From Celerinatantimonas diazotrophica (GTDB lineage Bacteria > Pseudomonadota > Gammaproteobacteria > Enterobacterales > Celerinatantimonadaceae), in the NCBI RefSeq assembly GCF_004339545.1, contig NZ_SMGD01000011.1, positions 124,001 to 188,000 of the forward strand: a DNA stretch of 64,000 nt, in the 5' to 3' direction. A program made the position numbers and the translations under genes. Shown piece by piece: positions 14,496 through 42,903 of this stretch. The notes below the pieces were generated by a model, which saw only the letters and a program-made list of their open reading frames with translations, was not told the origin of the DNA and did no database searches. Position 1 is the first letter of the stretch. Each line of letters starts with the position of its first letter.

Positions 14496-14765
14496 CTAGG
14501 GAAAGCTGAGCTTTAGCGGTTAAATTTTGTTCAAATTAAATGCATTTTGAACGGATCGTATTCTGAGGATGTTTAATGCATTAAGCCAAAACAGACAACA
14601 AAGTTCAAAGTGCATTTAAGTCAACTCGCTGGGCCGTATCTGAAGCAAACTTATCCAGCGTTATACGTTATTTTTTGGCTGATGGTTACACTGCAAACGT
14701 CTGCCTTGCCTAAAATCCGCCTCGGATTGCTGCAAAAAGAATCACAAAAGAACAACATTCCCTAG
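14496..14765 (+). repeat. MITE-like inverted-repeat element, copy 1 (diverged)
   Basis: This 270 bp element begins CTAGGGAAAGCTGAGC and ends ATTCCCTAG. It aligns along its whole length with the copies near 25.5 and 42.7 kb (shared blocks: TTTTGTTCAAATTAAA, GCATTTTGAAC, TTATCCAGCGTTA, TGCCTTGCCTAAA). It is clearly older, with imperfect ends. It fills the ubiF/miaB divergent gap and ends 66 bp before the miaB start. It contains no transposase. Confidence 0.82.
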
Positions 14766-24720: not shown

Positions 24721-25351
24721 TTCTCGCTTATATTTGGGAGGATCATTTGACCCCATCCATCACGGCCATTTAAATAGCTTAGAACAACTTCGTACGCGAT
24801 TGCAGTTAGATACAGCTTTCTTAATGCCAGCTTGGCGTTCCCCTCTTAAAGATGAAACCAACACTTTGGACAAACATCGCTTGGAAATGCTAGAACTGGC
24901 CATTCAGGAGTATCCAAACCTGCAAATAGAACGCTATGAAATCGAACGCCCTAGCCCTTCATATACCAGCCAGACTCTCGCTGCTTTTCGAGCACGCTAC
25001 CCACAGGACTCAATTATCTTTGCGATGGGAATGGATTCTTTTCAAGCGCTGGATAAATGGGCAAACTGGCAGCAGCTAACCACTCACGCCCATTTAGCTG
25101 TATTTGCTCGGCCCGGCTATAAACTGATGCTCAATCAATCTGTCGCTCATTTTTATCATGCTCATCAGGCAGATAATAAAGAGCAACTAACCAAGCTGCC
25201 TTGTGGCAAAATATGGCTGACCGAATTAGAACCTTTTGATATGGCTTCTTCATCTATTCGCGAGCAGTTACAGTGCGATCCAAACAATGCCAAGAAAACC
25301 TTACCCTCTAGCGTTTTTGACTATATCCAACAGCACCATCTTTATTTGTAA
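24713..25351 (+). CDS. nadD: Nicotinate-nucleotide adenylyltransferase
   Basis: This 212-residue enzyme makes deamido-NAD from nicotinate mononucleotide and ATP. The nucleotidyltransferase motif GGSFDPIHHGHL is at the N-terminus, and the C-terminal SSSIRE motif (DMASSSIREQL) binds ATP phosphates. The start is GTG 24713, inside the end of holA. In E. coli the next gene is cobC; here that position is taken by repeat elements instead. Confidence 0.95.
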   Translation: MPNSRLYLGGSFDPIHHGHLNSLEQLRTRLQLDTAFLMPAWRSPLKDETNTLDKHRLEMLELAIQEYPNLQIERYEIERPSPSYTSQTLAAFRARYPQDSIIFAMGMDSFQALDKWANWQQLTTHAHLAVFARPGYKLMLNQSVAHFYHAHQADNKEQLTKLPCGKIWLTELEPFDMASSSIREQLQCDPNNAKKTLPSSVFDYIQQHHLYL

Positions 25352-25355
25352 CTGA

Positions 25356-25422
25356 CTAGGAACTGTTGAGCTTTGCGGTTGAGATTTGTTCAAAGCATAC
25401 TGAAAAGCGCAACAGCGCCTAG
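25356..25422 (+). repeat. 67 bp deletion derivative of the MITE-like element
   Basis: The stretch begins CTAGGAACTGTTGAGCTTTG and ends CAACAGCGCCTAG, so 11 of 13 end bases are inverted-complementary and match the ends of the full elements. Its first half aligns with the left end of the family. It shares its last CTAG (25419-25422) with the full copy that follows. Confidence 0.65.
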
Positions 25423-25687
25423 GGACTGTTGACCTTTGGTGGTTGAATTTTGTTCAAATTAAACGCATTTTGAACGCGGCGCCCCCTGCGTCGCTTAATG
25501 AGTTAAGCAAGCAGGGGGCAACAAAGTTCAGGATGCGTTTAAATGAACCCCAAGGGCAGTATCTGAGAGGAATTTATCCAGCGTTAAACGTTCTTTGTGG
25601 AGAATAACTACACGGCACAACGTTTGCCTTGCCTAAATTCCTCTCAGATTTCTGCAAAACTAATCACGAAAGGTCAACAGTCCCTAG
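25419..25687 (+). repeat. MITE-like inverted-repeat element, copy 2
   Basis: This 269 bp element has 23 bp ends (CTAGGGACTGTTGACCTT at the left) that are inverted-complementary with one mismatch. It differs from the copy at 42638 by about five substitutions and one 3 bp indel, so the two are recent relatives. Inside are two long hairpins: one pairs GTTCAAATTAAACGC with GCGTTTAAATGAAC, the other pairs ATCTGAGAGGAATTTA with its exact complement. It lies between nadD and rsfS and encodes no protein. Confidence 0.88.
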
Positions 25688-25750
25688 ATAATCACCATTA
25701 AAAACAGAACTCATTTAGAACTAATTCAGTAAATATCTGTCATTGAATAC

Positions 25751-25783
25751 GGGTTAACGATTAAAGTTAACCCGTGATATACT
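25751..25783 (+). promoter_or_regulatory. rsfS promoter with embedded palindrome
   Basis: The perfect dyad GGGTTAAC-N7-GTTAACCC (25751-25773) lies just before TATACT (25778-25783). TTAACG at 25754-25759, 18 bp from that box, is a candidate -35. A palindrome covering the -35 and spacer suggests an operator, but no regulator is identified. Confidence 0.5.
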
Positions 25784-42637: not shown

Positions 42638-42903
42638 CTAGGGACTGTTGACCTTTGGTGGTTGAATTTTGTTCAAATTAAACGCATTTTGAACGCGGCG
42701 CACCCTGCGTCGCTTAATGAGTTAAAGCAGGGGGCAACAAAGTTCAGGATGCGTTTAAATGAACCCCAAGGGCAGTATCTGAGAGGAATTTATCCAGCGT
42801 TAAACGTTCTTTGTGGCCAATAACTACACGGCACAACGTTTGCCTTGCCTAAATCCCTCTCAGATTTCTGCAAAACTAATCACCAAAGGTCAACAGTCCC
42901 TAG
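42638..42903 (+). repeat. MITE-like inverted-repeat element, copy 3
   Basis: This 266 bp element has perfect 23 bp terminal inverted repeats (42638-42660 and 42881-42903; CTAGGGACTGTTGACC at the left end). TA flanks both ends when the repeat is taken to begin at GGGACTG. It is almost identical to copy 2. Two internal hairpins fill most of its length. It ends 61 bp before the pepD start, in the divergent gap with the permease. Short reading frames across it are not coding. Confidence 0.9.

Follow-up and report, generated by a model that had tools for sequence, protein, structure and literature searches.

A two-armed MITE with ISSod6-type ends in Celerinatantimonas diazotrophica and other, mostly marine, bacteria

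The Element, Its Target Site and Its Ends

The window, that is, the whole stretch of 64,000 nucleotides of the Celerinatantimonas diazotrophica genome analyzed here, contains between two + strand ORFs an element that begins with TAGGG and ends with CCCTA (25420–25686, + strand, 267 bp). This element is a MITE, a non-autonomous transposable element. Indeed, all the defining features of MITEs were found: it is short, noncoding (no ORF of at least 90 aa is listed within 25420–25686), bordered by terminal inverted repeats and multi-copy, with near-identical copies across its own genome. The first-pass annotation had given it the right position, but its bounds (25419–25687) are not the exact ends: the outer C and G of CTAG are target sequence and lie outside the element, whose terminal TAs (25420–25421 and 25685–25686, both + strand) are the target duplication, as judged from the independent flank bases and from a relative's empty site at a different locus (see below). 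Both terminal inverted repeats, the left one (TAGGGACTGTTGACCTTT; 25420–25437, + strand) and the right one (25669–25686, − strand; also identified by end matches in the genome), are of the kind that borders ISSod6-type elements of the IS5 family. Directly abutting the left end is what appears, read by eye only, to be a left-end remnant, truncated, of an older member of the family (25356–25418, + strand), arranged as if the new copy had inserted into a CTAG of the old one. The window holds two more copies on the + strand, a near-identical one of 264 bp (42639–42902; 98–99% identity) and an old, diverged one of 268 bp (14497–14764; 69–77% alike across two blocks). In the whole genome (3.97 Mb in 19 contigs), the 19-base end, with up to two mismatches allowed, has at least 84 forward and at least 76 reverse matches (0 for the reversed control), and at least 49 elements of 251–281 bp have exact ends. 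Identity to the 25420–25686 copy was 97–100% at the 40 places scored out of 115 first-look candidates.

The target site was deduced from the 117 elements read in a scan of named genomes (described below). The base before the left TA was C or T and that after the right TA was G or A in 97 of these 117. All four combinations occur among the 97 (34, 28, 20, and 15), left and right varying independently, which fits a duplication of TA at YTAR and not a four-base duplication. The latter (YTAR) is ruled out by these independent flank bases together with an empty site: at one locus, the sequence of genome G008 (L244) is uninterrupted and has a single CTAG, where G005 (L033) and G010 (L242) are filled with a relative of the element. 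From this one site, the target-site duplication is TA at CTAG. The same site was too diverged in G003 and G009, and the flanks had no match in five of ten genomes. In G007 (L243), it carries a partly deleted element, which lost part of its right side apparently by recombination of a GGGCAGC of the element with a similar flank. At another locus of G005 (L047), two elements stand in direct tandem with one CTAG in common.

Candidate partner transposases were sought between such ends. In genome G001, two pairs of ends of this kind flank 859 and 871 bp containing pieces of an IS5-family transposase with broken frames, and a third pair flanks 632 bp. The protein pieces match Pfam DUF4096/DDE_Tnp_1 and NCBIfam NF033580, the latter with a score that, the pieces being incomplete, stays below the curated cut-off. 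Plasmids searched by tblastn contributed 214 records with a match, from which eight regions were chosen, making 11 IS5-family loci with the three of G001. MITE-type ends, three of them one base off, are present at nine of these 11 loci (six of the eight plasmid regions and all three of G001) and absent at two (L255 and L256). The loci with ends include ISSod6 of Shewanella oneidensis (883 bp) and elements of 882–888 bp with a single annotated transposase gene in Pseudoalteromonas, Aliivibrio, Alteromonas, and Vibrio alginolyticus. ISSod6-type elements (IS5 family, NF033580) thus have in common with the MITE the terminal repeats TAGGG..TGTTGATCTTT and the flanking TA; unlike it, they are 859–888 bp long, encode a DDE transposase and have no double-hairpin interior. 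When the MITE profile was searched inside them, only the tips matched (terminal 20–47 nt), so that the interior of the MITE is not a deletion derivative of such an IS. An ISSod6-type transposase would most likely move the MITE in trans. No intact partner transposase was found in the draft genome of C. diazotrophica itself, where two loci (L240 and L241) carry an ISSod6-type transposase fragment with one in-frame stop and, elsewhere, an end-like pair 366 bp apart with a short transposase-like match. With only a fragment of such a gene present, the enzyme that produced the recent copies was not recovered from this genome.

Two other candidates were discarded. A CTAG/TA target suggests IS630. A DDE_3 domain was found neither in the own genome nor in 11 of the 16 genomes with family matches, and none of the 20 DDE_3 loci of the remaining five lies between such ends; an IS630 partner was dropped once the ISSod6-type ends had been found. 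We also searched for a gene-bearing relative among pairs of terminal repeats 300–5000 bp apart, which occur in L103, L168, L047, and L209. The long ORFs of the two loci inspected, L103 and L168, look like host genes, with no transposase recognized by eye, and L047 is the tandem pair mentioned above.

Predicted Fold and Distribution of the Family

The two inverted repeats that the first-pass annotation had noticed inside the terminal repeats are both present where it had placed them within 25420–25686. They form arm 1, a 97-nt hairpin (25452–25548, + strand; element positions 33–129) with stem sides GTTCAAATTAAACGC and GCGTTTAAATGAAC, and arm 2, a 100-nt hairpin (25556–25655, − strand) with stem sides ATCTGAGAGGAATTTA and TAAATTCCTCTCAGAT. 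Both arms are supported by the fold and by covariation, and also by a mismatch bias toward G.U on the + strand for arm 1 and its − strand counterpart for arm 2. The predicted fold places a linker between the arms (25549–25555, + strand) and, together with the derived pairs, an outer stem around them, with a left side at 25420–25451 and a right side at 25656–25686 (both + strand). Arm 2 has, as claimed, an exact complement in the 25420–25686 copy; the 42639–42902 copy has a single mismatch in this stem. Likewise, the base pair of arm 1 reported to have changed on both sides is T-A in the older 14497–14764 copy and C-G in both others. The predicted RNA fold of 25419–25687 has an energy of −139 kcal/mol, compared with −66.7 ± 4.6 for 200 shuffled sequences (z −15.8), and its DNA fold has a z of −12.5, none of the 200 shuffles being as good in either case. 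The suggestion of a fold common to the copies of the window held for 25420–25686 and failed for 14497–14764, which has mostly lost it (z −2.7 with 25 shuffles, and another shape).

The proposed shape, an outer stem enclosing two arms, is the usual one and holds across genera. It was found in 104 of 126 folded elements (the 117 scanned ones, 96 of which have it, and nine from the own and related genomes), the other 22 having mostly an extra small side hairpin or a split arm. All 117 scanned elements have z-scores between −4.6 and −18.7 (25 shuffles each). In the 265–271 bp class, the usual plan is an outer stem and two arms of about 98 nt, near positions 33–130 and 138–237, and the arm positions are fixed even where arm sequences are barely alike. 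Similarity of the interior weakens outside the aligned core group: 13 of 38 unaligned elements still match the core profile strongly, and Psychrobacter-type elements match it with a best E-value of 0.004 only, though they have the same plan.

The family is found in many, mostly marine, bacteria. When named genomes were scanned for end sequences spaced by 251–281 bp, at least 116 stretches were obtained, and one more came from viral contigs; of the 117 elements read, 104 measure 265–271 bp, ten exactly 281 bp, and three 256, 259, and 279 bp. Hosts among the 80 matches listed by name, of at least 116, include Vibrio, Shewanella, Pseudoalteromonas, Colwellia, Psychromonas, Psychrobacter, Grimontia, Alteromonas, Oceanisphaera, Halomonas, and Methylophaga, as well as two alphaproteobacterial MAGs, possibly mis-binned. 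The elements of these MAGs (L130 and L174) and of the viral contig (L214) are 269–271 bp long and very stable, with two main arms (arm 2 of L214 being split) and unlike interiors; they reflect either a true host range or contamination. Matches were found in at least 15 of 40 related genomes (own included), and exact-end elements of 251–281 bp in at least 63 of the 394 genomes and at least 20 of the 115 genera of the own order, where those of 282–312 bp occur in at least 18 of the 394 genomes. Six plasmid records have a match (five from Pseudoalteromonas and one from Vibrio), and none of the phage records searched does. Among the matches listed, longer variants (including L116, L127, L145, L102, and L124) cluster at 281–285, 291–300, and 308 bp, with inserts of about 12–14 nt in arm 1, the linker or arm 2, differing by lineage.

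The two-armed form is dominant across genera, as seen in a scan whose 251–281 bp spacing is blind to one-armed forms. Such forms were found by other means. In the own genome, three copies at three sites (L075, L076, and L077) have one arm-1 deletion in common, and a different one is seen in L074; in G001, arm 2 is missing from L079 and L080, at the same aligned position, and arm 1 from L083. Each of these copies carries TA at both of its tips, except L079, which has CA at one. One-armed elements thus seem still to move, or at least to arise repeatedly, and their occurrence with both ends at several sites suggests that a single arm is not strictly required for movement. The first-pass annotation had taken a conserved fold to suggest that it is needed; the pairing is indeed conserved, but "needed" is too strong, since copies without arm 1 or arm 2 retain both ends and occupy several sites.

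Paired Changes in the Arms and the Outer Stem

Covariation among copies had been set beforehand as the test of the fold. We addressed it by a home-made parsimony count of paired changes on one FastTree tree, in place of R-scape. The core alignment comprises 110 copies (111 rows before one identical row was dropped): 79 of the 117 scanned elements, 26 from related genomes, and five from the own genome, most own copies being left out and the old 14497–14764 copy being among the five. The 38 scanned elements outside the alignment had a difference in orientation score below 50 (34), a length outside 255–275 bp (11) or both. RNAalifold gave a poor consensus on the raw alignment, and averaged pair probabilities were used instead. 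In this way, 101 pairs were derived with G.U forbidden and both strands averaged, so that neither strand was favored; pairs with less than 50% Watson–Crick pairing went uncounted at this step, as did those with less than 60% in the mismatch-bias counts described below. The paired-change count took in all 101 pairs, and two pairs of the linker were kept apart.

Watson–Crick pairing in the 110 copies amounts to 89.1% in the outer stem, 86.0% in arm 1 and 83.3% in arm 2, as compared with 17–31% when partners were slid by 1–3 columns, a comparison that favors the unslid percentages because the pairs come from the same sequences. The number and variety of double changes form the stronger part of the evidence. 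Changes from one Watson–Crick pair to another numbered 60 in the outer stem, 175 in arm 1, and 133 in arm 2, versus at most 5, 17, and 15 in the slid controls; with the linker pairs, 371 double changes were counted versus 18–32, events that assume one tree, by parsimony, for copies that can recombine. The two linker pairs (94.1% pairing and three double changes) are not set apart by sliding (up to 83.6%). At least two Watson–Crick types, each in at least three copies, were observed at 59 of the 101 pairs, and at least three types at 34. Paired changes in the arms and the outer stem are therefore far beyond chance, and the very large excess bears out the fold proposed by the first-pass annotation. 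Compensatory base changes, a criterion for structured RNAs, are present in the 110 aligned copies.

Three pairs (columns 45–119, 65–98, and 150–224) hold all four Watson–Crick types with 85–98% pairing, which indicates that pairing, and not base identity, is kept there. This speaks against the possibility that the arms are paired binding sites in duplex DNA for a host or transposase protein, their complementarity resulting from the symmetry of the sites. In some blocks of the arms, the sequence is conserved along with the pairing, as it would be in such sites; in view of the four-type pairs, we nevertheless hold this explanation to be highly improbable. Within arm 1, conserved stretches that are mostly unpaired were also noted (GCGGCG / CAACAAAG).

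The two arms are related to each other. A profile of arm 1 matched arm 2, taken as its reverse complement, in 76 of the 110 copies (E-value of 0.01 or below; best 1.5e−9) and in none of the 110 in each of three controls. The element thus consists of two head-to-head copies of one module, a terminal repeat followed by a hairpin, arm 2 being the inverted homologue of arm 1.

Strand Bias of Mismatches and the Role of the Folded Strand

The first-pass annotation had offered two roles for the fold, as a transposition substrate or as a transcribed RNA. Mismatches tolerated in stems may discriminate between strands. On the + strand of the whole element, A.C exceeds G.T in all four sets (101 to 66, 48 to 27, 53 to 10, and 32 to 15), and the + strand has the better fold energy in 35 of 46 own copies, as against only 29 of 83 clearly oriented named ones. 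Both observations argue against a plain + strand RNA spanning the whole element, and this candidate was rejected. Counted by arm (means over random tie-breaks), G.T exceeds A.C in arm 1 (90.6 to 28.5) and A.C exceeds G.T in arm 2 (70.2 to 41.9), the outer stem favoring neither (G.T 18.5 to A.C 14.6). Since the halves are inverted copies, these opposite biases amount to a single one, in which G.U is tolerated on the strand read inward from each end. This split into inward-read halves was adopted after the per-arm counts and then checked on the 38 elements outside the core alignment, not all of them independent of the aligned ones, which gave 51 G.U to 19 A.C (15 to 3 in 16 Psychrobacter-type elements and 36 to 16 in the remaining 22).

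In the inward sense, G.U exceeds A.C on the inner branches (62.8 to 16.6) and on the outer branches (113.9 to 58.6) of the tree. On the inner branches, the counts are 40.6 to 2.9 in arm 1 and only 22.2 to 13.7 in arm 2; overall, the tolerance is strong for arm 1, weak for arm 2 and absent from the + strand of the whole element. A plainer tally, of 1x1 mismatches among the 110 aligned copies, gave 100 to 72 (p 0.04), with arm 1 alone going the opposite way (50 to 59), which may be explained by an apical position (columns 76–88) where C stands opposite A in 66 copies. Sequence make-up accounts for part of the arm 1 effect: the two strata whose 5′ base is G or T gave 71.9 to 18.5 and the other two together 18.7 to 10.0. 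In arm 2, one of the four strata, that of C-G pairs, runs opposite to the rest (G.T 20.5 to A.C 15.5). Fresh, near-private mutations (allele in at most two of 46 own copies) show no G.U excess (10 G.U to 14 A.C), in contrast with 161 to 70, the inward sum of the per-arm counts, and with the 51 to 19 above (Fisher p about 0.01 each); mutation bias is thus an unlikely source, on a small fresh sample of non-independent copies. The preference for G.U inward from each end speaks for selection acting on a single strand in its folded state, RNA being the most likely one.

This bias also bears on an explanation that gives the fold no function, in which templated repair (quasipalindrome correction by strand switching) keeps palindromes paired by copying one side onto the other. 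Quasipalindrome correction occurs in bacterial DNA and would yield double changes without selection. However, no strand bias would follow from it, and the conserved, mostly unpaired stretches of arm 1 would tend to be lost under it; it should act on inert old copies as well, yet the 14497–14764 copy has lost its fold. We regard it as very unlikely. The statistics rather support selection on a folded single strand as what has kept the pairing in the arms and, past the terminal repeat, in the outer stem. Both roles originally offered are compatible with a folded strand read inward: RNA fits best, and a displaced DNA strand also fits. In the latter case, 5′ halves displaced during replicative steps, or an extruded three-way junction, would aid the transposase or copying. 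According to the displacement model that we infer, the displaced 5′ halves are precisely the inward-read strands with the G.T bias; moreover, each arm adjoins a terminal repeat in a symmetric module, and the DNA fold is itself stable (the z of −12.5 given above). On the other hand, one-armed copies with both ends are found at several sites, and autonomous ISs have no arms, sharing with the MITE only the 20–47 nt of its ends. In addition, the inner-branch ratio of G.U to A.C in arm 1 (14:1) looks more RNA-like than DNA-like. Such a high ratio is expected of RNA more than of DNA, an expectation uncalibrated here. A DNA substrate therefore appears possible, though rather unlikely.

We infer that the folded molecule is RNA, and RNA made by read-in from neighboring genes is favored by the arm-1 inner-branch ratio and by the lack of a promoter-like site in the window copy: no sigma-70-like promoter was found in 25350–25760. 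A terminator scan yielded a single terminator-like site, at the level of shuffled sequences. With a crude ORF caller, none of 30 own, 17 related and 69 named copies lay inside an ORF, no arrangement of neighboring genes stood out, and the orientation of copies along tandem genes was not consistent (sense to antisense: 10 to 3, 3 to 8, and 15 to 27, respectively). Neither the element nor the loci of 18 relatives had an Rfam match above the gathering score, only tRNAs and group II introns being matched elsewhere. No description of this double-hairpin family was found in the open-access literature searched (most subscription papers lying outside it), including the available text of PMC10969869, PMC6382973, and PMC2267715.

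The explanation that we prefer, and to which we give about an even chance, is a MITE with ISSod6-type ends, built of two inverted hairpin modules, whose pairing is kept because it acts as a folded strand, an RNA made by read-in that softens the effect of insertions. Transcripts of flanking genes would enter the MITE from either side and would meet first the arm folded in their own sense. This hairpin might shield or end the host transcript, or be cut by an RNase. Insertions would then be less harmful, and copies would remain in place to give rise to further ones; owing to the two-fold symmetry, the effect would be the same in either orientation.

ERIC, Correia, and bcr1 are structured bacterial MITEs with stable predicted folds. 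The same is reported of QMITE2 of Coxiella in the available text of its description (PMC10969869). All four resemble the present MITE in being short, noncoding, intergenic, multi-copy and strongly self-folding; what differs here are compensatory changes across many genera, two inverted homologous arms whose positions are fixed and a strand-specific mismatch bias. REPINs rely on RAYT tyrosine transposases and are not known to carry terminal repeats of the DDE type, unlike this MITE with its terminal repeats and TA duplication. As far as the available text of PMC3116915 and PMC2817692 goes, REPIN/REP elements are likewise intergenic, with two inverted hairpins and a high copy number. MITEAba12, in the available text of PMC6382973, also has the ends of a resident IS and a narrow length range (90% of copies are 113 bp) but differs by its 113-bp size, a 9-bp duplication and weak predicted folds (−24 to −27 kcal/mol).

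For bacterial MITEs, a fold is in many cases a prediction from sequence alone, and this holds for QMITE2 and MITEAba12 in the available text of PMC10969869 and PMC6382973. Here, the fold can be tested by evolution, and it withstands the test, with hundreds of compensating changes, a two-arm plan fixed across genera and a bias absent from fresh mutations. Tentatively, the family may be a selfish element of wide occurrence in which selection acts on the pair of RNA hairpins as a unit, each half folding in whatever transcript enters. A property at the RNA level, and not the transposase ends alone, would then have been kept through repeated bursts across gammaproteobacterial genera, and possibly in alphaproteobacteria and a phage-like contig. 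What a folded strand does for a gene-less transposon can now be addressed directly, since Shewanella, Vibrio, and Pseudoalteromonas offer candidate partner elements.
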